Shown here in pieces: positions 3,893-32,150 of a stretch of DNA of 64,000 nt; position 1 is the stretch's first letter; each line of letters starts with the position of its first letter. The notes below the pieces were generated by a model that did no database searches, had not been told where the DNA came from, and worked only from the letters and a program-made list of their open reading frames with translations. The stretch spans positions 1 through 64,000 of the forward strand of contig NZ_WGDD01000057.1 in assembly GCF_015493435.1 (NCBI RefSeq), written 5' to 3'. This DNA is from Sulfurovum sp. (GTDB lineage: Bacteria > Campylobacterota > Campylobacteria > Campylobacterales > Sulfurovaceae). Made by a program: the position numbers and the translations under genes.

Positions 3893-6012
3893 GTTTTTGT
3901 CAGCCTTTCACTGAAATGATCCATTCTGAAAGGAGTGCCTATAAGCTGTTCAAAACGGTATTTCGCCCGCAAAAAGGTAAAACGCGGTTCATTTTTATAG
4001 ATTTTAAACAGCTGTCGTATCATATTTTTACGGTGAAAATCTTCAAAATAAGCTCTTCTTTGTACTGACATCTTCCGCATTTCTCTTTTTTGGGCGCAAT
4101 CTTCCAGGCATTCACATCCATCTACTGCAAGAAACTTGTAGGCAGCCAATTCATAATAGAAAAGGTCACTGGTCTTGATCTTGTCATAGGCAGAATAGCG
4201 GATGATCTGTTTGAGTGCATCCAGAGGAATGATCAACCCATGCCAGAGCAATGTCGTATAGAATTTCACCACATAACTGACATTTTTGATCTTGTTGTGT
4301 TCAAGCAGTGTATGAAAATGTTCCCAAAGTTCCGACGTAACATAACGTGTTCTGAAACGTGCCACTTCTTTGGCAATCCGTCTATGTTCTTCGGGTGATT
4401 CGTTGACGAGCAGCTCCCACTCTCTTGCGAGCACATCTGTACGGTGCACCATTTTCAAAAAAGCGGTATCATCGTTTTTTATCTCGCTCAACTCTTCGGG
4501 GGTCAACTCATTGAGCTGCGTCAAAAGGTCTTTAAAAAGGGTAAGATTGGTCTCATAATTGACAAGAGCAAGCTCTTCTTTGCTCATGACACCATCCCCG
4601 GTATGGATCAGGCCAAGGCCGTACTGCTGTGCCAGCTGCTGGTAACGAAGAATCACAATGATCATCAACAGATTGGATTTGTAAATGCTTTCATCTGCCT
4701 TGAGCATTTCGTAAATGGCAAGATAACGGTTCAACGCTGTATGCACAAAACGGTAGATATCTTCGCTGTTGAAATAATTTCGGTGGTTAGCCAGACCATA
4801 ATGCATAAAAGCGCTCTGCATCAAAAAAAGTATTTGCAGCGTCGGATAGTTCTGCCTGTCTGCAATCTCTTCAAGTTCTGCAGCGATCTCATAAGACTCT
4901 TCCACATAGGCCTGTCTGGAAATTTCATGGTTCTTGAGCAGTGTTTCAAGTGCTTCACTTTTCTTCACATATGAAAGATAGGTCTGATATGCCGATGCAT
5001 CCAGCCGTTCCAATACACTTTTGACGAAAGTATATCCCTGTCGGTACCCTACATCGAAACGTGCCTGTTCGGTATCGACCTGTAAACGCTCGAATTGCAT
5101 TTCAAGGTTTTTCATTGTATCGGAAAGCAGGTTCCACTGTACAGCGATCTTCTCGCTCCGGCCTGCCCCTTTGGCTTGAATATTGTAACTGTTCCGGTGT
5201 TCCATCCCTGCCCAAAGGTTCTCGAACGCTGTATGCAGCTGTATCTCTATGTTGAAAAAATTCCGGAAACGGTCAAGAAGTTCCGTCTGGGACATAGCCG
5301 GGTCGAATATATCAAAAATATCATCTTCCGGCAGCCTGTTTTCCTCAAAATGCGTATCAAAACGCGGATAAAATCGGGTATGGTCACAGTGCAGTCCCCT
5401 GTATCCGCTTTTACGCTTGACACTGTAAAAACCATAGAGCAGATGGTCATCTGTTCGGTGTTCATAGTCAAAAAAGCTGTAAAGTGCCCGTGCCGCCCAC
5501 TCCCGTTCATAGGGACTTGAACAGATAAAGAGCATCCCTATGAGATCGTGCAGTGCTCCGCCTTTAAGAAATATTTTAAGCGGGTCCTCTAAAAGTAAGG
5601 GTTGACGCAGTCCCAGTTTAACCAGTTTTTTGATCACACTGTCTGTATATTTGTACCGTATCTTGATCGTTGTGATCCCCGAATGCTGAAGTACTGCGAT
5701 CTCTTTGTTCCCTGCTGTTTCTTCTTTAAGCGCCTTGAAATAGTGTATCAATCCTTCGGTAAATCTGGGCAGTATTCCCCGGGGTACTACACACCCCTTC
5801 CCCGCTATGACCTCATCGTCGATACCGACAAGACGGTAATAAACCTTCATGCACTCCAGGATCTTTTGTGTGAACGCATCTATTCCCTCTTCACCCAGAA
5901 CAGCTGATGCCCGTTGGTTGCGCATACTCTCTCTTATCACTGGTTCAAGACTATGAACCGGTCTGTATTCCGGAGTGGGTGTAAAATTGAATATTTCTAT
6001 GTATGAGTGCAT
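3889..6012 (-). CDS. Large protein with divergent RelA/SpoT synthetase-like domain
   Basis: A 707-residue protein. Residues about 110-280 contain the signature elements of the (p)ppGpp synthetase fold in order: KIRYKYTDSVIKKL (117-130, cf. the nucleotide-binding R-x-K...S segment), HDLIGM (155-160, with the Mg-binding Asp), KSGYRGLHCD (201-210, cf. NGYRSLH) and EIQLHT...WAGMEHRNSY (256-276, cf. EIQIRT...WA-EH--YK, with the catalytic Glu). Two usually conserved Arg positions differ: the GIR Arg is Leu161 and the QIRT Arg is His260. No HD hydrolase, TGS or ACT domain is seen. The remaining about 400 residues are mostly helical, with a Cys cluster (GCECLEDC) near the C-terminus. It has its own promoter (TATAAT 6046-6051) and an AGGA ribosome site. 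It could be an alarmone synthetase, a tRNA-modifying toxSAS-like enzyme, or inactive. Confidence 0.7.
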   Translation of the reverse strand: MHSYIEIFNFTPTPEYRPVHSLEPVIRESMRNQRASAVLGEEGIDAFTQKILECMKVYYRLVGIDDEVIAGKGCVVPRGILPRFTEGLIHYFKALKEETAGNKEIAVLQHSGITTIKIRYKYTDSVIKKLVKLGLRQPLLLEDPLKIFLKGGALHDLIGMLFICSSPYEREWAARALYSFFDYEHRTDDHLLYGFYSVKRKSGYRGLHCDHTRFYPRFDTHFEENRLPEDDIFDIFDPAMSQTELLDRFRNFFNIEIQLHTAFENLWAGMEHRNSYNIQAKGAGRSEKIAVQWNLLSDTMKNLEMQFERLQVDTEQARFDVGYRQGYTFVKSVLERLDASAYQTYLSYVKKSEALETLLKNHEISRQAYVEESYEIAAELEEIADRQNYPTLQILFLMQSAFMHYGLANHRNYFNSEDIYRFVHTALNRYLAIYEMLKADESIYKSNLLMIIVILRYQQLAQQYGLGLIHTGDGVMSKEELALVNYETNLTLFKDLLTQLNELTPEELSEIKNDDTAFLKMVHRTDVLAREWELLVNESPEEHRRIAKEVARFRTRYVTSELWEHFHTLLEHNKIKNVSYVVKFYTTLLWHGLIIPLDALKQIIRYSAYDKIKTSDLFYYELAAYKFLAVDGCECLEDCAQKREMRKMSVQRRAYFEDFHRKNMIRQLFKIYKNEPRFTFLRAKYRFEQLIGTPFRMDHFSERLTKT

Positions 6013-6045
6013 GGTTGTCCTAAAATAATACTTTTTGTGTGTGAC

Positions 6046-6051
6046 ATTATA
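6046..6051 (-). promoter_or_regulatory. -10 box for the RelA/SpoT-like gene
   Basis: A perfect TATAAT on the minus strand, about 34 bp before the ATG at 6012 and preceded by AAAAGG. No clear -35, which is usual for sigma-70 promoters in Campylobacterota. It lies back to back with the pta promoter. Confidence 0.55.
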
Positions 6052-6069
6052 CCTTTTGATGTTTTATGT

Positions 6070-6075
6070 TAAAAT
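6070..6075 (+). promoter_or_regulatory. -10 box for pta-ackA
   Basis: TAAAAT preceded by TGT (extended -10), about 32 bp before the chosen pta ATG. Divergent from the promoter of the RelA/SpoT-like gene, only about 20 bp away, so one regulator could act on both. Confidence 0.5.
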
Positions 6076-6106
6076 CTTATCACTGCCATGCATCAAAAGG
6101 ATCCGT

Positions 6107-8203
6107 ATGCCACATGCAAGTATTTATATCGCTTCCACAGAAGCACAGTCGGGAGCACTGGTTATTGCCATAGGTTTTATGGAAATGCTGAAAGGGCGCT
6201 ATACCAATGTCGCCTATTTCCGCCCTGTAGTTCCGGAGAAAAAAGAGGATGAAACACATATCGGTTTTATGCTTGAACACTTCGGCTTGAAAATTTCATA
6301 CGATGCCTGTGTCGGATTTACCGAACCGGAAATTGTTCAGGCATTTGCCGACAACAAAGAAGAGGCACTGATGGAAGTGCTCATTGACAAAGTGAACTGG
6401 CTGCAGCAAAATTACGATTTCGTCCTGATCGACGGTTATCCGCGCAACCGGTTTGCATCTACATTTGACTTTGACATCAATCTCAGGATCGCCAAAAACC
6501 TCGGAACGCTCTTTTGTCCTGTACTCAATGCAAAAGGGAAAGACAGCGAAGATATCATCAATGAGATACAGATTGTTTCAGAGACCATCAGCGCAGAGGG
6601 ATGTCGTGAACTCGCTGCCTTTGTAAACCGCTGTCATCCCGATACGATAGAAGCCGTGCGGCAAGATATCAATCGTTTAGAAGACAATCAGCAGGTCTAC
6701 CTGCTTCCTGAAGTAAAAGAGATCGATACCCCCACACTGAGACAGATAGCACAGGTTCTCAATGCAAAAACCGTACTGGGCGACGAAGAACAGTTCAATC
6801 ATCTTGTCACGGGAACCAAGATCGCCGCTATGGGTGTAGCCAATTACCTTACGCGCATCAAGGAAAACCATCTCATTGTCGTCCCTTCGGACAGAAACGA
6901 TATTATTATCGCTTCGCATCTCTCTTACGCAGCCAAGAACCATCCCAATATCGCAGGGATCATCCTCAGCGGCGGCATTCAAACGGATACGTGCATCATA
7001 GAGCTTATTAAAGATTTTCCGGAAGCACCCATTCCCATGCTTTCCGTTCAAAGTGACAGTTATGAAACAGCGATAGCTGTTGAGCAGATACAGGCAAGGA
7101 TCACACCGGAAGAGACACAGAAGATCATACAGGTCAAAGCACTTTTCGACACCCATGTGGATAAAGAGAAGATCGTCGAAGGATTTAAGGCATGCAGAAA
7201 CGACATTGTTACCCCTATGATGTTCGAATATCGTCTGTTTGAACAGGCACGCAGTGAGAAAAAAACGATTTTACTGCCCGAAAGTGAAGATGAACGCATT
7301 CTGAAAGCAGCTTCTATTCTGCTCCAAAGAGATATTGTCGATCTGATCCTCCTGGGAGAAGAAGAGGAGATCAAACACAGATGTGCACAGCTCAGGCTTG
7401 ATATTGCCAAGGCAAAGATCATCGACCCGGCACAGGGCGGACTGTCCGAAAAGTTTGCACAGCAGTTCTACGAACTCAGACGTACCAAGGGCCTCACCCT
7501 TCCGGCTGCCAGGGATGCCATGTCGCATCGTAACTATTTTGCCACGATGATGCTCTATAACCATATGGCAGACGGATTGGTATCCGGTGCTTCACACACG
7601 ACCGCAGACACTGTCCGCCCCGCTCTTCAGATCATCAAAACAACACCGGGCATTTCTATTGTCTCCAGTATCTTTTTTATGCTTCTCGATACCAAAGTAC
7701 TTGTGTATGGTGACTGTGCCGTCAATCTTGATCCTACGGCAGAAGAACTGGCACATATCGCCATCTCCTCTGCCGATACTGCTTCCCGATTCGGTATTGA
7801 ACCCAGAGTTGCTTTACTGTCCTACTCTACAGGCGATTCCGGCAGCGGTCCCGATGTAGAAAAAGTACGCAAAGCAACCAGACTGGCACAGAAACTGAGA
7901 CCTGACCTCCTCATAGAAGGCCCCATACAGTATGATGCCGCCATCGATATGAACGTTGCCAGAAAAAAGCTGCCTGACAGCAAAGTGGCAGGACATGCTA
8001 CGGTATTTGTATTCCCCGATCTCAACACAGGAAACAATACATACAAAGCGGTTCAGCGCTCTACCGGTGCCACGGCTATCGGACCGGTCCTTCAGGGCTT
8101 GAAACTTCCGGTAAATGATCTCAGCAGAGGCTGCCTTGTAGATGATATTGTCAATACGGTGGCAATTACTGCAATACAGGCACAGTACAGGGACAAAGCA
8201 TGA
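6107..8203 (+). CDS. pta: Phosphate acetyltransferase, long form
   Basis: A 698-residue enzyme converting acetyl-CoA and phosphate to acetyl phosphate and CoA. The N-terminal part is a P-loop-like/DRTGG region (residues 1 to about 370, starting MPHASIYIASTEAQSGAL); the C-terminal about 320 residues are the catalytic phosphotransacetylase domain, with MADGLVSGASHTTADTVRP and VALLSYSTGDSGSGPDVEKV. The length fits the long E. coli-type Pta. I choose ATG 6107 because AAAAGG lies just upstream and the protein then begins at the conserved domain; the open frame extends to 6035 without a good ribosome site. The stop overlaps the start of ackA (ATGA), a classic coupled pair for acetate formation or uptake. 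Confidence 0.96.
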   Translation: MPHASIYIASTEAQSGALVIAIGFMEMLKGRYTNVAYFRPVVPEKKEDETHIGFMLEHFGLKISYDACVGFTEPEIVQAFADNKEEALMEVLIDKVNWLQQNYDFVLIDGYPRNRFASTFDFDINLRIAKNLGTLFCPVLNAKGKDSEDIINEIQIVSETISAEGCRELAAFVNRCHPDTIEAVRQDINRLEDNQQVYLLPEVKEIDTPTLRQIAQVLNAKTVLGDEEQFNHLVTGTKIAAMGVANYLTRIKENHLIVVPSDRNDIIIASHLSYAAKNHPNIAGIILSGGIQTDTCIIELIKDFPEAPIPMLSVQSDSYETAIAVEQIQARITPEETQKIIQVKALFDTHVDKEKIVEGFKACRNDIVTPMMFEYRLFEQARSEKKTILLPESEDERILKAASILLQRDIVDLILLGEEEEIKHRCAQLRLDIAKAKIIDPAQGGLSEKFAQQFYELRRTKGLTLPAARDAMSHRNYFATMMLYNHMADGLVSGASHTTADTVRPALQIIKTTPGISIVSSIFFMLLDTKVLVYGDCAVNLDPTAEELAHIAISSADTASRFGIEPRVALLSYSTGDSGSGPDVEKVRKATRLAQKLRPDLLIEGPIQYDAAIDMNVARKKLPDSKVAGHATVFVFPDLNTGNNTYKAVQRSTGATAIGPVLQGLKLPVNDLSRGCLVDDIVNTVAITAIQAQYRDKA

Positions 8204-23686: not shown

Positions 23687-23732
23687 AATATGCTTCAGGG
23701 TACCTCTGTACCCTTCAGTTCCAAAGCATATT
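23687..23732 (-). terminator. Nested inverted repeat at the end of the 138-residue gene
   Basis: Outer arms AATATGCTT / AAGCATATT (9 bp perfect) enclose inner arms AGGGTAC / GTACCCT (7 bp perfect, loop of 4). The outer arm overlaps the TAA stop of the upstream gene. There is no long T tract after it, so it may be a weak terminator or an mRNA-stabilising stem rather than a classic terminator. Confidence 0.5.
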
Positions 23733-24147
23733 ACGGAAACAAGGCTGCAATACTATGCTGACCGTAATGTTCCGGATCATATGCTTTGGTATAGTCTTTT
23801 TCCCTGCATACTTTTCCGTTTTTCATATAGCGAGCATAAGTGTATGCCTTAAAATCACCTGTACCGCCAATATTAAGGCCTCCGTCTTTTCGGTTCGTAC
23901 CGTACATCGTACCTGAAGCAACCACATCTTTCGTACTGTAGCCAATACTCTTGCAATTGAACTTCGGATCCACTATTATCCTCAAACCATGCGTCTTGGC
24001 TTGCTTCATGCTTTTTTTAACCATGGCTTCAGAGAGGTGCTTTGCTATTCTTATCTCTTTATAGTCACTCAGCATCTTGTTAGAAGCAAGCGATATTACA
24101 GAAGTCGATAGTAGCATTAACAGTACAGTTGCATACTTTAGTTTCAT
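23731..24147 (-). CDS. Small secreted protein, CKSxG family member A
   Basis: 138 residues, signal peptide MKLKYATVLLMLLSTSVISLA, no recognised domain. It shares with the next upstream protein the layout: signal peptide, about 60 polar residues, FNCKSIGYSTKDV (cf. LTCKSLGFVKHTKQD), then a stretch of aromatic and polar residues and a second Cys (GKVCREKDY). The two are probably distant paralogues with one disulfide each. The gap to the upstream gene is 9 bp, so they are co-transcribed. Function unknown. Confidence 0.65.
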   Translation of the reverse strand: MKLKYATVLLMLLSTSVISLASNKMLSDYKEIRIAKHLSEAMVKKSMKQAKTHGLRIIVDPKFNCKSIGYSTKDVVASGTMYGTNRKDGGLNIGGTGDFKAYTYARYMKNGKVCREKDYTKAYDPEHYGQHSIAALFP

Positions 24148-24156
24148 GTTGATTTC

Positions 24157-24537
24157 CTAATCGTTTCCATCAACAAGTACGGCAAAATTCTCCGTGCCGC
24201 CTTTATAGATATTTTCATCACAGACTGCTTCAACATCATTCTTTACCATTTTGGTATAGTGATAAAGCACATGATCACCAAAATCCTGTTTTGTATGCTT
24301 CACAAACCCCAGGCTTTTACAGGTCAATGCCGCTTTTTCCATAATCTTATACGGGTTTGACCCCTCGTTGGCAAACTTGGCATTCTTTTTTTCCATTTTT
24401 GTCACAAATGACGGGGTATTTTTATAGATGCTGATCATATCATACTTATCGATATCGATCTTCTCTGCTGTATATGCTGCTGTCGTGACAACCATAGTTA
24501 AACTCATTACCGCTGTTATTCTTTCTTTTCCAAACAT
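24157..24537 (-). CDS. Small secreted protein, CKSxG family member B
   Basis: 126 residues; N-terminal signal-like segment ending TTAAYTAEK, then a polar domain with LTCKSLGFVKHTKQDF and a second Cys (VEAVCDENIY). It resembles the downstream 138-residue protein in Cys placement and in the C-K-S-x-G-aromatic motif. Its ribosome site AAAGGAG lies 7 bp before the ATG. It sits 22 bp after the Met-rich protein gene. No known family recognised. Confidence 0.62.
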   Translation of the reverse strand: MFGKERITAVMSLTMVVTTAAYTAEKIDIDKYDMISIYKNTPSFVTKMEKKNAKFANEGSNPYKIMEKAALTCKSLGFVKHTKQDFGDHVLYHYTKMVKNDVEAVCDENIYKGGTENFAVLVDGND

Positions 24538-24559: not shown

Positions 24560-25693
24560 TTATTCTTCTGGCATACACTGCTTCAAAGCTGAAAAAGTTG
24601 CAGCTTTTTTAATGCATGGCAATGATTTTTCAAATGCATCAATCTCTTTAAGGATATCTGACTTTATGGTAGAGTTCCATTGGGTATGATGCACAGGATA
24701 TTCACTGTCTGCTTTTTTTTCACACCTATTGGCTTCTTTTACGGAATTTGCATTTTGAAAACAGGTTTTGACTGCCGGCAAATCGGCAGCATCGTCAAGT
24801 ATCTCTTTTTTGGCACTTGCCAGCATAGCATCTTCACCACCCATAGCAGCCATTGCAGCATCCTGCATTGCTTTTTTTTGTGCCTGTGACGGTTTGGCAT
24901 GGGGATCATTCATATTAAAACCGGACTTTTGCAAGGCACCCATCGCTGCGGCCATTGCTTTCATACCGTTTTGCATCTCTTTGGCTTGCTTGATACTTGC
25001 TTTTTCATCTATTGCACTTAAGTTCTTTCTATCCAAATTCAATTTCTGTCCCATCATATCAACCATTGGATACTCAGGCAATTTAAAGTCATCGTCAGTC
25101 AGTGCAATATTAAAATCTGCTTTGGTAGCAACCTGTACACTTTTCAAGCCCATTATGTTTGACTCGATACGCAGCGGTATCCCTTTATAAATGCACTGTT
25201 TCACTCCCATCAGGTTCCATACATCACAAGTATATCCCAATACTTTGTCTGTACCTGTTTTCTTTCCGCCCATGCTTTTCATCATAGCTTCACCGGTCTG
25301 TTTCATATTTTTCCCGCCACCCATCATTGCATTCATGGCCATAGCCTGGTTTTCCATTCTTACAATGGTTTTTTTCTTGAAATCAACACGATACATCATA
25401 CCCTTATTCATATACATCAATGTATGTGTTTTCTCCACTTTGGCTTGACCGCCGGTCGTCTCTTTTTTTACTTTGTTCTCTTCGGTCAGATCTTTTGTAC
25501 CGTAGTGATCAAAAATAAGCCTTTTCTTCCCTACACCTTTGATCTTGACCATTCCCATTATGTTACCCGACTCTTTAATGCTGTATTCGATCTTGCCACT
25601 TTTGACATCATATCTTTTCATCATATCCGAACCTGCAAAAAGTATGGAACTACCAAACATTATGATTATCGAAATTTTTACTGTTTTTCTCAT
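24560..25693 (-). CDS. Met-rich secreted protein, DUF4412-like N-terminal half
   Basis: 377 residues with a signal peptide (MRKTVKISIIIMFGSSILFAG). About 34 residues (9%) are Met, clustered as MAMNAMMGGG and MKAMAAAMG. The first half (KSGKIEYSIKESGNIMGM ... TLMYMNKGMMYRVDFKKKTIVRM ... VLGYTCDVWNLMGVKQCIYKGIPLRIES) follows the pattern of periplasmic DUF4412-type proteins; this is a tentative match. The second half is helical with a C-terminal four-Cys region (CFQNANSVKEANRCEK ... CIKKA...QCMPEE). Met clusters can bind Cu(I), but nothing here proves that. It starts 9 bp after the VWA gene stop. Confidence 0.65.
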   Translation of the reverse strand: MRKTVKISIIIMFGSSILFAGSDMMKRYDVKSGKIEYSIKESGNIMGMVKIKGVGKKRLIFDHYGTKDLTEENKVKKETTGGQAKVEKTHTLMYMNKGMMYRVDFKKKTIVRMENQAMAMNAMMGGGKNMKQTGEAMMKSMGGKKTGTDKVLGYTCDVWNLMGVKQCIYKGIPLRIESNIMGLKSVQVATKADFNIALTDDDFKLPEYPMVDMMGQKLNLDRKNLSAIDEKASIKQAKEMQNGMKAMAAAMGALQKSGFNMNDPHAKPSQAQKKAMQDAAMAAMGGEDAMLASAKKEILDDAADLPAVKTCFQNANSVKEANRCEKKADSEYPVHHTQWNSTIKSDILKEIDAFEKSLPCIKKAATFSALKQCMPEE

Positions 25694-25702
25694 TTTTTCC
25701 CC

Positions 25703-27937
25703 TTATTTGGTAAACATATCGAGATCTTTGCTCATCTCGTCAAACTCTTTGTCTGCCTTCTCATTCTGGCTGCTCTGTTTTGGTTTTTTCTCTTTATCAA
25801 CTGCTGCACTGTTCCCCTGCATCATACCTCCAAGCATTTGAAGCATGGCAGCTGCTTTCTTAAGATCAGCAGCATTCTTCTCGCTGATCCCTTCTATCTG
25901 TATCTTTTTGTCTCCTATCGTAACGGAGTGTGCATTCGTCTGTGTTGTTGCAGGTTCTGTTTTCTTTGGCTGAACAGGGACAACCACAGTTTCCGAAGAA
26001 TCAGCCTTTATCTCCTCTTCATGGTTAAGATTGGTCAGATCAAGTATCAGTTTAGCCGGTTTGCCTGCACCTACTTCAAACGCTGCCTCTCCCGTACCTC
26101 CGCTGACACTTGCCTCTACACGGTATTTCCCTTCATCGAGTACCATATTCAGCATTTTGGAACAAGGTACCTTTTTATCATAAACAAGTTGTCCGCTGCT
26201 GGCATATATCTCATAAGAAACCTTCTCGCTCCCATTGGAACATTTTGCCCCTATGACAAAAGGAGAGAAAATAACATGTACTTTACTTACCTTTCCAGCA
26301 GTCACTTCAAACGGTGCCTCTTTTTTGAATCTATTGTATTCACACTTGAGAAGATACTTGCCGACTGGCAGTTGCTTGGTACCTGCTTCTTTCTTTCGAG
26401 GTCCTATATACCAGTTATCTGAATCATCTACTTCGCCATCCACTACTTTATAGGCGCGACAGTTTGCATCAATCCACTTGCCACCTTCTTTCTCACTGGC
26501 AGTTACTTCAACCTTTCCGGTCTGTCCCATGACCACATGAAGCTTAGTCGTCTCACCGGCTTTGATCTCTACAGGAATGTCTTTTCTCTTGAATGCATTG
26601 TATTCACAGTTTAAAGTATATTTCCCTACCGGTACCTGTTTGGTCCCTGCCTTTTTCTTCCGGGGACCCACATACCAGCTGTCAGATTTGTCTTCATTGT
26701 AAAGCCTGCAGCCTGCATCGATCCACTTGCCCCCCTCTTTTTCACTGGCAGTTACTTCTACGTTTCCGGTCTGCCTAAAAAACAGGTGAAGTGTTTTTTC
26801 TTCCTTATTCGCAAGGGTGAACTCCGTATGGGCCTTCATGCTGTCGTAAGTCGCTTCGACATAATATTTTCCGATGGGAAGAATACGTTCACAAGCCTTC
26901 TTCTTCGTCGGAACACACCACACTATCTGATCGTCTCTATTGGGTTTTCCGTCAATGATCGGGTAAATATACACAGAACCTTTTACTTTCAGCCCGCCCT
27001 TCTCTTCTGCCAGATCGATAGTCACCTTACCGCTTTTGATCATGATGACAGTATGGTTCTTTGCCTGTGGTTTAAGTACCATATCACCTTCTGCAGACTG
27101 GAGCTCTCCTGTTCGGTCATAAGCTGCTTTTACATGTATTTTACCCACTTTGACATCGACTTTCGGTGCTTCATCGTTACCGCTGTAGAGTACTTTCCCC
27201 TCCTGACTGACTGCCCATTTTACACCTGAGACATTCAGCCCTTTAGGGGACATATTGTAACGCGCAACCAACGTATATTCTGTCTGTGTGAGCACAGGTG
27301 CTTTTGGCTTTTCAACTTTTTTCACAATACTTTTCATCGCTTTGTTCAGGGCAGCAGCATTTTTGGCAGAAAAATACGCCCCTCCTGTCGCATGGGCGAT
27401 ACATTCCAACTGCTTGTCAGTCTTTTTGTCAACATTGAAACCGATCACATGTGTGACAAAGTCTATTCCCTCTTTTTCAAGTTCTTTTGCCGTACCGCAG
27501 GGATCAGGGTCACAAGTCTCTTTCCCGTCGGAGATAAGAATGATCGTTGCTTTCTCTTCTGTGAATTTCAACTCGTTCGCCGCTTTGCGCAAAGAACGGC
27601 TGATAGGTGTTTTACCCTTGGGCTGTATCTTCATGACCGTATCGATGACTTTGTTTTTATCCACCCTGCCTACAGGAATGACAGTCTCGATATCATTACA
27701 ATCTCCTTTCCTGCGATGCCCATAAACGGTAAGTCCCAATTCGACATTGGGATTCCATTCTCTTACTACATTTTTTAATGCCTCCCTGGCTATCGCTATC
27801 TTTGGTTTTCCGTGTATCTGCCCCCACATACTCCCCGATGCATCAAAAATAATGACTGCACGCGGACTCTCTGCTGCCGGCACACTTGTAAACAATGTTG
27901 CCAAAACCAACACAAATCCAAATAGTATTTTTTTCAT
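25703..27937 (-). CDS. Secreted von Willebrand A protein with duplicated beta-domain
   Basis: A 744-residue protein. Signal peptide (1-22); VWA domain (about 25-205) with a complete metal site (DASGS 32-36, ISDGKETCD); a series of PEGA/CarboxypepD-like beta modules; then two nearly identical modules, residues 389-471 and 472-558, each starting QTG-x-VEVTASEKEGGKWIDA and containing WY-x-GPRKK-x-AGTKQ-x-PVGKY. A Lys/Glu-rich C-terminal tail follows. There is no membrane anchor after the signal peptide. GGAGG lies 10 bp before the ATG. It heads a tight four-gene cluster (VWA, Met-rich, two CKSxG proteins). It is not a Bat protein. Likely role: an adhesive or scaffold protein of the envelope (inference). 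Confidence 0.78.
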   Translation of the reverse strand: MKKILFGFVLVLATLFTSVPAAESPRAVIIFDASGSMWGQIHGKPKIAIAREALKNVVREWNPNVELGLTVYGHRRKGDCNDIETVIPVGRVDKNKVIDTVMKIQPKGKTPISRSLRKAANELKFTEEKATIILISDGKETCDPDPCGTAKELEKEGIDFVTHVIGFNVDKKTDKQLECIAHATGGAYFSAKNAAALNKAMKSIVKKVEKPKAPVLTQTEYTLVARYNMSPKGLNVSGVKWAVSQEGKVLYSGNDEAPKVDVKVGKIHVKAAYDRTGELQSAEGDMVLKPQAKNHTVIMIKSGKVTIDLAEEKGGLKVKGSVYIYPIIDGKPNRDDQIVWCVPTKKKACERILPIGKYYVEATYDSMKAHTEFTLANKEEKTLHLFFRQTGNVEVTASEKEGGKWIDAGCRLYNEDKSDSWYVGPRKKKAGTKQVPVGKYTLNCEYNAFKRKDIPVEIKAGETTKLHVVMGQTGKVEVTASEKEGGKWIDANCRAYKVVDGEVDDSDNWYIGPRKKEAGTKQLPVGKYLLKCEYNRFKKEAPFEVTAGKVSKVHVIFSPFVIGAKCSNGSEKVSYEIYASSGQLVYDKKVPCSKMLNMVLDEGKYRVEASVSGGTGEAAFEVGAGKPAKLILDLTNLNHEEEIKADSSETVVVPVQPKKTEPATTQTNAHSVTIGDKKIQIEGISEKNAADLKKAAAMLQMLGGMMQGNSAAVDKEKKPKQSSQNEKADKEFDEMSKDLDMFTK
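26264..26773 (-). repeat. Tandem duplication inside the VWA gene
   Basis: Two adjacent coding repeats of about 249 bp (26525-26773) and 261 bp (26264-26524). Long stretches are almost identical at DNA level as well as protein level, so the duplication looks recent. The second copy has a small insertion (VVDGEV). Confidence 0.8.
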
Positions 27938-28035: not shown

Positions 28036-28734
28036 TTATCGGCACGGATCAACACGGACATCATTGTTAGGATAAAGGTAGATCTCTACTCTTCTGTTAA
28101 GTGCCATATTGCGTTCGGAAGTATTGGGAACCAGTGCTTTCTTATAGGAGCAGCCCGTCACATAACTTGGATTGTTTATCCCCTCGCGATAGAGTCTGTC
28201 AGCTACTGTTTTAGCCCTCTGTCTGGAAAGCCTGTAATTATAGTCATACCCACCTCTGTTATCTGTAAATCCTGCTACCTGTACGATCGTTTGCGGATAT
28301 TCGCGAAGGATCTTGCCCACTTTACCCACTTTGTATGAAGCACTTGACGTCAATCTGGATGAAGCAGTCGGGAACATCATGCGGTCACGAAACATAATCT
28401 TCACGTATTTACCGTTGTTGGAAACGATCAGGTCCTGGTTTGGATCAAGATAGGCAAGCGGATCATTGTTGACACCGGTTCCCAGGGAACGTGCAATATC
28501 ATTGGCTTGCTGATCCAGGCTGTACCCTATCAATCCACCCGCCGCAGTACCGATCGCTGCACCTATCAGTGTCGATTTCGTATTGCCTCCTATCAACTGT
28601 CCGGCCAAAGCACCGGCAGCAGCACCGCCGATCAGGCCATCTGTTGTATTGCTTGTTCCCGTCGAAGCACACCCTGTAAGCAATGCCGCACTGATGGATA
28701 TTGCTGTGACTGATTTCAAAATTTTTACTTTCAT
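28036..28734 (-). CDS. OmpA-family lipoprotein with glycine-zipper segment
   Basis: 232 residues: lipoprotein signal with lipobox LTGC (Cys22), a glycine-zipper hydrophobic segment (GLIGGAAAGALAGQLIGG ... AAIGTAAGGLIGYSL, about 33-75) and a C-terminal OmpA-like peptidoglycan-binding domain (about 110-225; GFTDNRGGYDYNYRLSRQRA is the core motif). This is the layout of YiaD-type outer-membrane lipoproteins that tie the outer membrane to the wall. It has a strong promoter of special structure (28764-28796) shared with two other genes of this locus. The VWA cluster begins 98 bp downstream on the same strand and may be read from the same promoter. Confidence 0.9.
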   Translation of the reverse strand: MKVKILKSVTAISISAALLTGCASTGTSNTTDGLIGGAAAGALAGQLIGGNTKSTLIGAAIGTAAGGLIGYSLDQQANDIARSLGTGVNNDPLAYLDPNQDLIVSNNGKYVKIMFRDRMMFPTASSRLTSSASYKVGKVGKILREYPQTIVQVAGFTDNRGGYDYNYRLSRQRAKTVADRLYREGINNPSYVTGCSYKKALVPNTSERNMALNRRVEIYLYPNNDVRVDPCR

Positions 28735-28763: not shown

Positions 28764-28796
28764 ATTATAGCCATAAAATGTGGCAAAAGTGTGGCA
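28764..28796 (-). promoter_or_regulatory. Activator-type promoter A: two TGCCACA repeats plus -10 (OmpA-like gene)
   Basis: Read on the minus strand: TGCCACA (28796-28790), CTTT, TGCCACA (28785-28779), nine bases TTTTATGGC, then TATAAT (28769-28764). The repeat period is 11 bp. No -35 hexamer is present; the repeats occupy that place. Same geometry as at 29599-29631 and 32118-32150. Confidence 0.85.
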
Positions 28797-28826
28797 TACC
28801 TTGTTTCTTTCTCTCTTTCATCCACC

Positions 28827-29537
28827 TCATTTAAAACTCCTACACTTTTTCTCACTCTTGAAACTCTTTTCACTCACTTGCCTGTCTAAAAGTATAGCTC
28901 CTCTGTTATTCATAATTCTTTGTCTTACAAACAGAGTACAGGCCGGTTCACCACATCCGTCACAATCAGAGAAAGAGAGAACATTACTGCGAAGATTATA
29001 GATAGTTCCCATCTTCCTGTAGCGTATCTTGCCATAGACATCTCCCAACAGCAGCATACTTAGCTCCGCAGGTGTATCGACAGTACCAAGAAATGAAAGA
29101 AGATCCTTTCGTGAGTTAATGGTTTGCACCTTTGAGTGACTGTCAATATAGTGCAGATTGTAAAAACCGGCAACAGCACCATCATTGAAAGAGTATTTCC
29201 AAAATGAATGCTTAGGCTTTTTCGCTCTGGCAGAACGGATCTTCTTTTTATCATTAGTAGAGAGCTTGTTGTAGGCAGCCATATCAAAAGACCACCCAGC
29301 AATATACTCGCCATAAATATTGTACTGTTTAATGTCAAAATACTTCACAGCTTTTGCCAAATGGACATCACTCAGTTTAGCTGACTTCAGAGATGCCGGT
29401 TTTCTGCCTTCATTTGTTTTTAACGGTTTATACTGCTGCCATTGTTTTTTACCCATAGTATGTGACCGGCAATGTGCATTTTCCACCTGAACGCCTAATA
29501 TCAATACTGCCAATAGCATTATTTTAACTATTTTCAT
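28827..29537 (-). CDS. Secreted protein of unknown function under the shared promoter
   Basis: 236 residues with signal peptide (MKIVKIMLLAVLILGVQVENAHC). The mature part is basic and rich in Tyr and Lys (IYGEYIAGWSFDMAAYNKLS, KHSFWKYSFNDGAVAGFYNLH), then a Cys cluster (SDCDGCGEPACTLF) and a final Cys. I do not recognise a family. Start chosen at ATG 29537 because GGAG lies 9 bp upstream; the frame opens at an ATG 30 bp earlier without support. Its promoter has the same two-repeat operator as the response regulator and OmpA-like genes, so it is a likely target of the adjacent two-component system. Confidence 0.7.
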   Translation of the reverse strand: MKIVKIMLLAVLILGVQVENAHCRSHTMGKKQWQQYKPLKTNEGRKPASLKSAKLSDVHLAKAVKYFDIKQYNIYGEYIAGWSFDMAAYNKLSTNDKKKIRSARAKKPKHSFWKYSFNDGAVAGFYNLHYIDSHSKVQTINSRKDLLSFLGTVDTPAELSMLLLGDVYGKIRYRKMGTIYNLRSNVLSFSDCDGCGEPACTLFVRQRIMNNRGAILLDRQVSEKSFKSEKKCRSFK

Positions 29538-29561
29538 TACTGTTTCTCCATTATTATTTCG

Positions 29562-29581
29562 CCCCATTCAAACGCATAAAA
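29562..29581 (-). repeat. 20-bp leader element, copy 1
   Basis: TTTTATGCGTTTGAATGGGG on the minus strand, 25 bp before the start of the unknown secreted protein. 17 of 20 bases match a segment at 27951-27970, just before the VWA gene. Confidence 0.45.
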
Positions 29582-29598
29582 TGCTTATATTATAATTT

Positions 29599-29631
29599 AT
29601 CATAACATTAAAATGTGGCAAAAGTGTGGCA
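29599..29631 (-). promoter_or_regulatory. Activator-type promoter B: two TGCCACA repeats plus -10 (unknown secreted protein)
   Basis: On the minus strand: TGCCACA (29631-29625), CTTT, TGCCACA (29620-29614), nine bases TTTTAATGT, then TATGAT (29604-29599) with TGT before it as an extended -10. It begins 11 bp past the stop of the histidine kinase gene. Confidence 0.85.
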
Positions 29632-29641
29632 AAGGAAACGC

Positions 29642-31426
29642 TTATGTATTTTGATAAAGTTCGATAATAAACCTGGTACCCGGCGAAAGCTGTTCTATAC
29701 GAACAGTACCGCTCATGTGTTTCTCAATAATGATCTTCGTCATATACAGTCCAAGTCCCATGGAATCTTCTTTGGTGGTAAAATAGGGATCAAATACTTT
29801 TTCAATATTTTGGGGGTCAATTCCCTTCCCGTTATCTTCTACAATAATGGTGACAATATGGTTTTTTTGGTTCAATACCACTTTTATTTTACCTTTGACC
29901 GGCAGAGAATCCACCGCATTTTTAATGAGGTTTATCATCACCTGCAAAAATTCATTTTGATACAGAGAATAGGAAACTTCTTCAAGCTGTGTATAAAGCT
30001 GAATATCTTTCTTACGAATAGAACCTTCTACAAATTCTATAGACTTGAGGATCAGTGCTTTGAGATCTTCCACAGAACTCTGGTCTTTGGGCTGATAGAA
30101 TGTTCTGAAATCATCAATCGTCTCTGACATGAACTCTATATTGTTTTCCATATCTTTGTAATAGGCATCCAGTTTGTCACACCCCACCTTTTTATCTACA
30201 TTAAACCGCAGCAGTGCCAAAATAGAAGCGATCTTGTTGATCGGCTGACGCCACTGGTGCGCGATCATGGGGAGGAGTTCACCCAGCAATGCCTGTCTAG
30301 ACTGAAATACAAGTTTTTCATTGGTCTCTTTAAGTCTGGATTCATAATTTTTCAATTTCCGATTCAGGATCGAAGAGAGATAGAGTGACAATAAAATAGA
30401 GATGACCCAGGTAAAGAGCATAAGATAGTAATTGATCTTTATATTTGCTTCCCGTTTCAATTCATTTTGTTTTTTCTGAAAATCACTGTTTTTCTGGATT
30501 GATTTGAGATTTTCCACTGCGGTAATGTACCAGTCATATTCCGGTATATAGTCCGTATATGCCATGTAATGCTTGTCCCGATACAGACCCTTTTGTACAT
30601 AGCGGGCCAAAAAGCCTTTTTTTGTCTCTCCTGAAGTATTGATATCATCAGGAGCATAAATGATCTTGTGTTTAGAGTTTGAAACAAAAAAATATCCGTC
30701 TGTAAATTGATGATTGTCTTTGATATACGTCAAAATATCTTTACGTACATCTCTTTTCATATATTTCAGGTATTCTCCTGCACCAACATACCAGTTGTAA
30801 CAGTCAAGCAGTTTTACATAAGAAATCTTATAATGCATTTCTTTGCGGTCTTCACTGACAATATACCAGTAGTAATCTACAAACCCTTCTCCTTTTTCAC
30901 GCAACACTTTTGTAAATTCCCTGACAATATATTTTCCCTGGACATCCTGTATGTTCATAATGTTCGTACCTACCATTTCCGGATCGATATGCACAAAGAT
31001 ATTCCCCTGCATATCAATAAGGAAAAGATACCCGAGATCACCCTCGAACTTAATCCCTTCAAGTGCACTGATGATCATTTTTTTCAATGCGTTCTCATCC
31101 AGTGTATCTTTATATTTAGCATAGAGATTATTGGTAACATTCACAGCAAGGTTGACAATACTTTTGGCATCTTTTTTGATCTTGTTGCTGCTTTTGCTGT
31201 CATAATAGCGCACAAACTGTACCATGTTTTCCACTCTGTCGCGAAGCCGGTTCCCTTCCATATCCATCAAGGTCTGTTCATACTTTAGCGCCTCTCTTTT
31301 AATCTCTTTACGCTGAGAATAAAAAAAGAAAAGATGTGAAAGTCCTCCATAGAGAAGAAGTGCAACAAGCGGGAACAGTACGATCAGTGTCGTCAAGCGG
31401 AAAGAAGGCTTAACATTCCACCTCAT
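29642..31426 (-). CDS. Sensor histidine kinase with double Cache domain
   Basis: 594 residues. Membrane helix about 12-35; periplasmic region 36-330 with two Cache modules (about 115-215, GYLFLIDMQGNIFVHIDPEMVG ending YNWYVGAGEYL; and about 240-305, GYFFVSNSKHKIIYAP ending YDWYITAVENL); second membrane helix about 333-354; short coiled coil; then kinase core with phospho-acceptor His390 (IAHQWRQPIN), N box Asn503 (NLIKNAVDSL), G1 EDNGKGI, F box FDPYFTTK and G2 MGLGLYMTK. It should sense a small ligand in the periplasm and phosphorylate the regulator whose gene overlaps it by 4 bp. The ligand is unknown. Confidence 0.93.
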   Translation of the reverse strand: MRWNVKPSFRLTTLIVLFPLVALLLYGGLSHLFFFYSQRKEIKREALKYEQTLMDMEGNRLRDRVENMVQFVRYYDSKSSNKIKKDAKSIVNLAVNVTNNLYAKYKDTLDENALKKMIISALEGIKFEGDLGYLFLIDMQGNIFVHIDPEMVGTNIMNIQDVQGKYIVREFTKVLREKGEGFVDYYWYIVSEDRKEMHYKISYVKLLDCYNWYVGAGEYLKYMKRDVRKDILTYIKDNHQFTDGYFFVSNSKHKIIYAPDDINTSGETKKGFLARYVQKGLYRDKHYMAYTDYIPEYDWYITAVENLKSIQKNSDFQKKQNELKREANIKINYYLMLFTWVISILLSLYLSSILNRKLKNYESRLKETNEKLVFQSRQALLGELLPMIAHQWRQPINKIASILALLRFNVDKKVGCDKLDAYYKDMENNIEFMSETIDDFRTFYQPKDQSSVEDLKALILKSIEFVEGSIRKKDIQLYTQLEEVSYSLYQNEFLQVMINLIKNAVDSLPVKGKIKVVLNQKNHIVTIIVEDNGKGIDPQNIEKVFDPYFTTKEDSMGLGLYMTKIIIEKHMSGTVRIEQLSPGTRFIIELYQNT

Positions 31427-32097
31427 CCTCGATCTCTCTCTTTGTAGTACCCTACGGTATTTCTGTTTTTGATCAGATCATCCGGTAGTTTTTTCCTCAA
31501 ATGTTTTATAAATGAACGTATAGCATTTTCTGTGGGCATACCCTCTTCCCATAATGCTATGATTTCATCATACGTTACAATACCTTTTCGTGCGATCACA
31601 GTTAAAAACTTCAACTCTTTCCGGGTCAGAGCATGTTCTATACCATTCGCTCTCAACAATGATTCTTTTGTATAAATGAACACATCACGGTCCAGTTCCA
31701 GGACATTATCTTCCAAAAAATCGCTGTTCAGTGTTTCGAGCAAAAGATGGATCTTTCTGGAAGTAAGCGGTTTTACGATGTATTTGTCCAAATTCAATTC
31801 TATGGATTCCAAAAGATAATCAGTGTTTGTATAAGCAGAGATCACCACCACCGGAAGTTCTTTGTGGGTTTCTCTGATCTTTTTGATCAGTTCAATACCA
31901 TTCATTTTGGGCAGTTCAATATCAACAAGCAGTACATCTATCTCATGCTCCAAAAAGGTCTGATACCCTGTCTCACCATCGGAAGCAGTATAAAATGTTT
32001 TAAAAAAATGACTTAAAAGCTCAGAAATATTTTGAAGAACATCTACTTCATCCTCAATATAAAGTGCCGTTTTATCTTTTAGGGAATCATACATCAC
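31423..32097 (-). CDS. OmpR/PhoB-type response regulator
   Basis: 224 residues. Receiver domain with acidic pair (YIEDEVD, residues 13-19), phospho-acceptor Asp59 (VDIELPKMNG), ISAYTN and Lys109 (IVKPL), followed by a winged-helix output domain (about 150-220; AIRSFIKHLRKKLP is the recognition-helix region, VGYY the wing). It starts at ATG 32097 or the adjacent ATG 32094, after a GGGGGG/AGG-rich ribosome site. The kinase gene overlaps its 3' end. Its own promoter carries the tandem operator (32118-32150), so autoregulation is predicted. Confidence 0.92.
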   Translation of the reverse strand: MMYDSLKDKTALYIEDEVDVLQNISELLSHFFKTFYTASDGETGYQTFLEHEIDVLLVDIELPKMNGIELIKKIRETHKELPVVVISAYTNTDYLLESIELNLDKYIVKPLTSRKIHLLLETLNSDFLEDNVLELDRDVFIYTKESLLRANGIEHALTRKELKFLTVIARKGIVTYDEIIALWEEGMPTENAIRSFIKHLRKKLPDDLIKNRNTVGYYKERDRG

Positions 32098-32117
32098 CTA
32101 CCCCCCTCATTTTCTGA

Positions 32118-32150
32118 ATTATAACATGAAATTGTGGCAAATGTGTGTCA
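32118..32150 (-). promoter_or_regulatory. Activator-type promoter C: TGACACA + TGCCACA repeats plus -10 (response regulator)
   Basis: On the minus strand: TGACACA (32150-32144), CATT, TGCCACA (32139-32133), nine bases ATTTCATGT, then TATAAT (32123-32118) with TGT before it. Same spacing as promoters A and B; the distal repeat has one changed base. Confidence 0.82.

Follow-up and report, generated by a model that had tools for sequence, protein, structure and literature searches.

Organization of the locus

The stretch of 64,000 nucleotides analysed here (the window; positions 1 to 64,000 of contig NZ_WGDD01000057.1 from Sulfurovum sp., assembly GCF_015493435.1) harbours a two-component system (TCS), TCS-A, next to a run of genes for exported proteins, all located on the minus strand. 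A preliminary description of this DNA had proposed that an OmpR-type regulator encoded at 31423–32097 controls itself and nearby envelope genes via tandem repeats. The product of this gene, response regulator (RR) RR-A (31423..32097), indeed possesses both a receiver and a Trans_reg_C winged helix (PF00072 and PF00486, above the Pfam cut-offs), and the phospho-acceptor aspartate and the KP motif are retained in the alignment (LLVDIELP and YIVKP). The adjoining sensor histidine kinase HK-A (29642..31426) comprises a periplasmic dCache_2 and a HATPase_c domain (Pfam), and its orthologues adjoin RR-A in other families as well.

Three operator-promoters, previously placed on the minus strand at 32150–32118, 29631–29599 and 28796–28764, were located exactly to the base, each 5' of the start of the gene named for it. 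The site of the RR-kinase operon (32118..32150) reads TGACACA-CATT-TGCCACA-ATTTCATGT-TATAAT, with half-sites at 32144–32150 (TGACACA) and 32133–32139 (TGCCACA) and the -10 element TATAAT at 32118–32123. The second site (29599..29631), starting about 10 bp past the stop codon of the kinase gene, reads TGCCACA-CTTT-TGCCACA-TTTTAATGT-TATGAT (half-sites TGCCACA at 29625–29631 and 29614–29620; -10 element TATGAT at 29599–29604) and precedes the gene of a secreted protein of unknown function (28827..29567), the translation of which likely starts at an internal ATG (MKIVKIM...). The third site (28764..28796) reads TGCCACA-CTTT-TGCCACA-TTTTATGGC-TATAAT (half-sites TGCCACA at 28790–28796 and 28779–28785; -10 element TATAAT at 28764–28769) and precedes the gene of an OmpA-domain lipoprotein with a glycine zipper (28036..28734; Pfam). 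The latter is followed by genes for a secreted VWA-domain protein (25703..27937; Pfam) and an exported protein with a predicted LolA-like half-barrel (24560..25693), which lies downstream in the same gene run. According to the gap sequence, no operator directly precedes vwa in the window, and its transcription therefore probably starts from that of ompA; in four congeners (G004, G061, G020 and G060), vwa orthologues do have one.

Neither the secreted protein nor the half-barrel protein has a Pfam match. For the latter, the structural model shows pLDDT (predicted local distance difference test) values mostly of 82–95 over the barrel strands, LolA is the commonest among its PDB matches (best E 8e-7), and homologues lie behind operators in G307, G052, G063 and G068. 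A fold search with the secreted protein gave no match to a solved fold.

Geometry and rarity of the operator-promoters

The 11-bp period and the 9-bp gap to the -10 element are the same in all three sites, as described before. The Pho box consists of 7-bp repeats with a 4-bp spacer (PMC4415409), and the PhoP site of Mycobacterium tuberculosis is a 7-N4-7 direct repeat with a strictly required 4-bp spacer (PMC4832192). The phoA promoter of Escherichia coli MG1655, read here as TGTCATA-AAGT-TGTCACG-GCCGAGACT-TATAGT, has the same 7-4-7-9 spacing. As in Pho-box-type class II activated promoters, the 7-N4-7 direct repeat replaces the -35 element at a fixed distance to the -10 element.

A search of the 2.16-Mb genome for TGNCACA-N4-TGNCACA yielded only four matches (none in the reversed control), and the extended pattern TGNCACA-N4-TGNCACA-N9-TATRAT with up to three mismatches retrieved the same four sites and no others. 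The window contains no further pair at zero or one mismatch across its 64 kb, in agreement with the preliminary description. Its notion of a local regulon has to be amended: the regulon is not purely local because the fourth site, TGACACA-TATT-TGACACA-N9-TATAAT, is located on another contig (G000:C26:39112-39144, locus L008), 5' of a lemA gene that is followed by the gene for a large membrane protein. Markov simulations of order 1 and order 3 with the composition of the window predicted 0.4–0.65 repeat pairs per genome, and zero repeat pairs with a -10 element in 2 x 10 Mb.

Half-site statistics were obtained from 99 distinct sites of the fetched genomes with up to one mismatch; since these were gathered by pattern, the strong conservation of other columns is in part a product of the search, but the pattern left base 3 of the half-site and position 26 free. 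Base 3 varies (A 45, T 23, G 23 and C 8) and is identical between both half-sites in 76 of the 99 sites, as compared to a mean of 30.7 and a maximum of 46 upon shuffling (5000 trials); this concordance agrees with a direct repeat being read by two copies of a single protein. A G at position 26 (65/99 sites) gives an extended -10 element.

Conservation with RR-A in other families

Conservation upstream of orthologues, set beforehand as a test capable of refuting the proposal, was observed for the RR gene of a distant metagenome-assembled genome (MAG; G078) and for congeneric targets. In this MAG, an RR 59% identical to RR-A is encoded on contig L009, where TGCCCCA-N4-TGCCACA-N9-TATAAT precedes the RR-kinase genes amid flanking DNA unrelated to that of the window; the layout at this orthologue (L009/L072) equals that of site 32118..32150. 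G078 contains four other sites with up to two mismatches to the 33-bp pattern as a whole, and a lipoprotein-like exported gene follows each of them. In a third family, seven genomes (G174, G228, G324, G239, G208, G298 and G307) carry the operator directly after the kinase gene, and its distance from the RR start is 2434–2481 nt in these and in the window. In most of the seven it precedes the gene of a protein of about 70 residues. This conserved protein (GKEIAHAIGKTPPAITYMKKQN...; L112:1563-1775, L120, L133, L146 and L148) has no Pfam match and is perhaps a small DNA-binding protein.

Operator variants differ per RR lineage: the window and G078 have TGC/TGA, the two f4 genomes TGC, f6 TGACA(C/T)A and G120 TGTCACT; the recognition helices differ too (TENAIRSF, TSYAIRSF or SQDAIRSF, TDNAIRSF), the numbers behind this comparison being small. 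In G120 and G196 (L140 and L141), the kinase adjoining the RR-A orthologue matches HK-A in its C-terminal part only, and the sensor domain therefore seems to be exchanged there too.

The same operators with a different system in congeners

The congeneric survey comprised 78 genomes including that of the window, which alone contains RR-A; none of the other 77 encodes it at E<=1e-42. Nevertheless, 80 operator matches were detected across the 78 genomes, where the reversed control gave 9. The genes behind these operators include orthologues of the window genome's targets (OmpA lipoprotein, VWA, LolA-fold and LemA genes) as well as genes for beta-barrel proteins and lipoproteins. LemA genes of six genomes of the genus, i.e. 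the window genome (G000), G041, G026, G060, G002 and G061, are preceded by the operator; these loci (L008, L187, L202, L225, L249 and L257) offer a lead on regulation of the poorly understood LemA family.

Similarity searches of the congeners with RR-A, or with just its winged helix, retrieved only paralogues without operators. When the complete set of Trans_reg_C proteins was collected from four genomes, a different regulator, RR-B, came to light beside sites in G002, G004 and G061, partnered by a kinase of the 7TMR-DISM/HisKA_2 type (together TCS-B). Orthologues of RR-B are present in 19 of the 78 genomes (E<1e-60); RR-B was not found in the window genome at E<=1e-40. Genomes with RR-B contain 2.16 sites on average versus 0.60 in those without (Mann-Whitney P = 4e-5; P = 3e-4 when limited to assemblies of at least 90% completeness), with both P values being optimistic because the congeners are related. 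In 11 of the 19 RR-B genomes, an operator is located 1.73–1.93 kb from the RR-B start, immediately 5' of the kinase gene and facing away from it. The operators described in the preliminary account are conserved with RR-A; they are not tied to RR-A alone, since a different TCS accompanies the same operators and targets in congeners. RR-A as sole regulator throughout the genus was rejected, with 1 of 78 genomes carrying RR-A (at the above cut-off) versus 19 carrying RR-B. A further operator-like sequence, TGACACG-N4-TGACATA-N9-TATAAT, is located in G002 (L300:3301-3333) between divergent signalling genes, coding for a 518-aa sensor and for a 380-aa kinase plus an RR.

Apparent exchange of the signalling genes

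The locus of G004 is syntenic to that of the window, with folC, mfd, a TCS and the genes for OmpA lipoprotein, secreted protein, LolA-fold protein and VWA protein. Identities amount to 70% (folC), 90% (mfd), 90% (OmpA), 40% (secreted), 30% (LolA-fold) and 51% (VWA), and only the TCS in the slot differs in kind, the two RRs being 24% identical. The ompA orthologue of G004 is preceded by TGTCACA-N4-TGTCACA-N9-TATAAT, and the TCS-B clusters of both G004 and G019 encode homologues of the secreted protein. RRs from other genera and families share 50–60% identity with the window RR, which groups with G078 in the RR-A tree (support 0.87), the deeper branches being weak; the genus is otherwise devoid of RR-A. 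The simplest reading is that TCS-A apparently replaced TCS-B in place at the mfd-ompA locus in the lineage of the window. The order of this exchange is inferred; the reverse direction, or independent insertions beside ompA, may also account for the arrangement. Operators and targets appear to be older than the local RR, given that they coexist with TCS-B in many congeners and, in several of these, directly adjoin it. Between RR-B and mfd of G004, where the TCS differs from that of the window, there is a frame that by eye resembles a transposase (L298:6760-7272, plus strand), a possible trace of cassette exchange.

A hybrid regulator is encoded on L011 (Sulfurovum MAG 135; 5592–6281, plus strand), adjoining a TCS-B-like pair. 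Its receiver is of the A type (47–58% identity to RR-A, 27–31% to RR-B) and its winged helix of the B type (65% to the adjoining RR-B, 25–31% to RR-A). In both RRs of L011 the recognition helix is changed, with SRRRSL replacing NTIRTL, and the operators read TGCAACG-N4-TGCAACG-N9-TATACT and TGCAACG-N4-TGTGACG-N9-TATTCT at unchanged geometry; these tandem TGCAACG operators precede the hybrid RR gene (5540) and the next gene, coding for a lipoprotein (6321). The joint change of helix and operator supports binding of the RR at these sites.

Proposed regulon and alternative explanations

The sites very probably constitute a real regulon of a well-known type, the control genes of which appear to have been exchanged, and the preliminary interpretation is well supported. 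A Pho-box-type envelope regulon is quite likely, in which HK-A and RR-A act via tandem TGNCACA repeats on their own operon, on the genes of the secreted protein and LemA and on the run from ompA via vwa to the LolA-fold gene, with the operators apparently predating the RR and TCS-B apparently having been replaced. By analogy to characterized systems, HK-A would sense a periplasmic ligand through dCache_2 and phosphorylate RR-A. The latter would bind head to tail as a tandem dimer to two TGNCACA half-sites 11 bp apart, occupy the place of the -35 element and recruit sigma-70 polymerase to the often extended -10 element, as PhoB does at phoA. RR-A would in this way activate transcription from all four promoters, that of lemA lying outside the window. 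In a broader view, favoured with moderate confidence, Campylobacterota retain a conserved envelope regulon with operators of the Pho-box kind, whereas the commanding TCS is swapped as a cassette (TCS-A replacing TCS-B here, a hybrid RR elsewhere), and the shared layout acts as a common socket for a change of signal.

Several observations weigh against these proposals. The window genome encodes about 24 Trans_reg_C proteins, and another RR could therefore share the sites. At lemA the half-sites are TGACACA instead of TGCCACA, and an operator precedes lemA in congeners devoid of RR-A as well; lemA could therefore answer to another RR. No clear site was detected at the thresholds used in G196 and G414, both of which possess RR-A, and some operator-bearing congeners (e.g. 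G074, G068 and G026, the assemblies of which are incomplete at 71–86%) lack RR-A and RR-B at the cut-offs applied. That another RR of the genome, such as a PhoB orthologue or a diverged RR-B-like protein, binds some or all of the sites, with the local RR being a mere neighbour, is nevertheless considered unlikely. The abundance of candidate regulators, the resemblance of the half-site to the E. coli Pho box and the presence of the same operators before lemA, ompA and vwa orthologues in congeners without RR-A would agree with it. However, the RR-A gene itself has the operator in the window and in G078, operators are linked to the RR-A kinases of the seven third-family genomes, the window genome yields no RR-B at the above cut-off, and none of the four genome sites precedes a phosphate gene, as judged from a search with a pattern including the Pho box. 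A Pho (phosphate-starvation) regulon was rejected accordingly: despite the Pho-box-like half-site, the four sites precede RR, secreted-protein, ompA and lemA genes rather than pst, pho or phosphatase genes, and the sensor of the kinase is dCache_2.

Repression instead of activation by RR-A is still less probable, even though an operator overlapping -35 could block sigma-70 and the OmpR-type ArsR of Helicobacter pylori negatively autoregulates (PMC9449129), since the exact 9-bp phasing, the replacement of -35 by the operator and the frequent TGN before -10 correspond to the activated phoA layout. The least credible explanations are sigma-54 promoters and chance. The former is suggested by TGGCACA-N4-TGGCA of some congeners, which resembles the -24/-12 consensus, a superficial match confined to TGG variants; the window sites (TGCCACA) lack GG, and in-step variation of base 3 in both repeats and the TATAAT element at a fixed distance of 9 bp downstream, not needed by sigma-54, contradict it. 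An origin of the repeats by chance or as a generic feature of strong promoters without a dedicated regulator might appeal to the low number of three sites and the likeness among AT-rich promoters, and is practically ruled out by the simulations, the genome counts, the reversed controls (80 versus 9 in the 78 genomes) and the conservation before orthologues.

Relation to known systems and significance

The proposed RR-A regulon shares with PhoB and the Pho box of E. coli phoA the 7-bp repeats, the 4-bp spacer, the 9 bp to -10 and an operator in place of -35, and the E. coli half-site TGTCAYA is one variant of the present site set. In contrast to E. coli, the targets are envelope proteins without any phosphate gene, the kinase possesses a dCache_2 sensor, and the half-sites of the window genome have C or A as base 3. 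The PhoP site of M. tuberculosis is likewise a strict 7-N4-7 direct repeat, to which the RR binds as a tandem dimer (PMC4832192), but differs in half-site (TCACAGC) and regulon. Sulfurospirillum PceP/PceS (TCS2) is a campylobacterotal OmpR-type system with the RR gene beside its targets and with direct repeats, some of which overlap -35 (PMC7755780); however, its motif is CTATW-N17-CTATW and its targets serve tetrachloroethene respiration. DccRS of Campylobacter jejuni, which belongs to the same bacterial class, comprises an OmpR-type RR that activates a small set of genes encoding putative proteins of the periplasm and membrane (PMC9449129). It represents the nearest functional parallel within the class. 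The DccRS motif WTTCAC-N6-TTCACW likewise has an 11-bp period, with a different half-site. The papers on DccRS and PceP were found in a literature search, which retrieved no description of the TGNCACA operator family among the papers it covered.

The promoter type itself is of a known kind; unexpected is that operators and targets are retained although the TCS is of two different kinds. A regulator, an operator and a target set are hereby assigned to envelope genes of unknown function in Campylobacterota beyond the well-studied pathogens, where few regulons have been described. The same promoters and targets with two unrelated sensors, the hybrid regulator and the lineage with joint change of helix and operator form a natural experiment, which makes testable the exchange of a TCS without rebuilding of the regulon as well as the residues reading base 3 of the half-site. 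If true, a common operator socket lets the cell change which signal controls its envelope.

Another RR (400–403 aa) with its own upstream tandem repeat and 9 bp to TATAAT is encoded on L194 and L253 (L194: TGTCACACCAG-TGTCATACGG), which suggests that the tandem-repeat layout is common among RRs of the class. At the end of the gene run in the window, two small exported proteins (23731..24537, minus strand; genes at 24157–24537 and 23731–24147) are possible further members of the regulon, and a 69% identical homologue of the gene at 23731 adjoins a VWA gene in G061.

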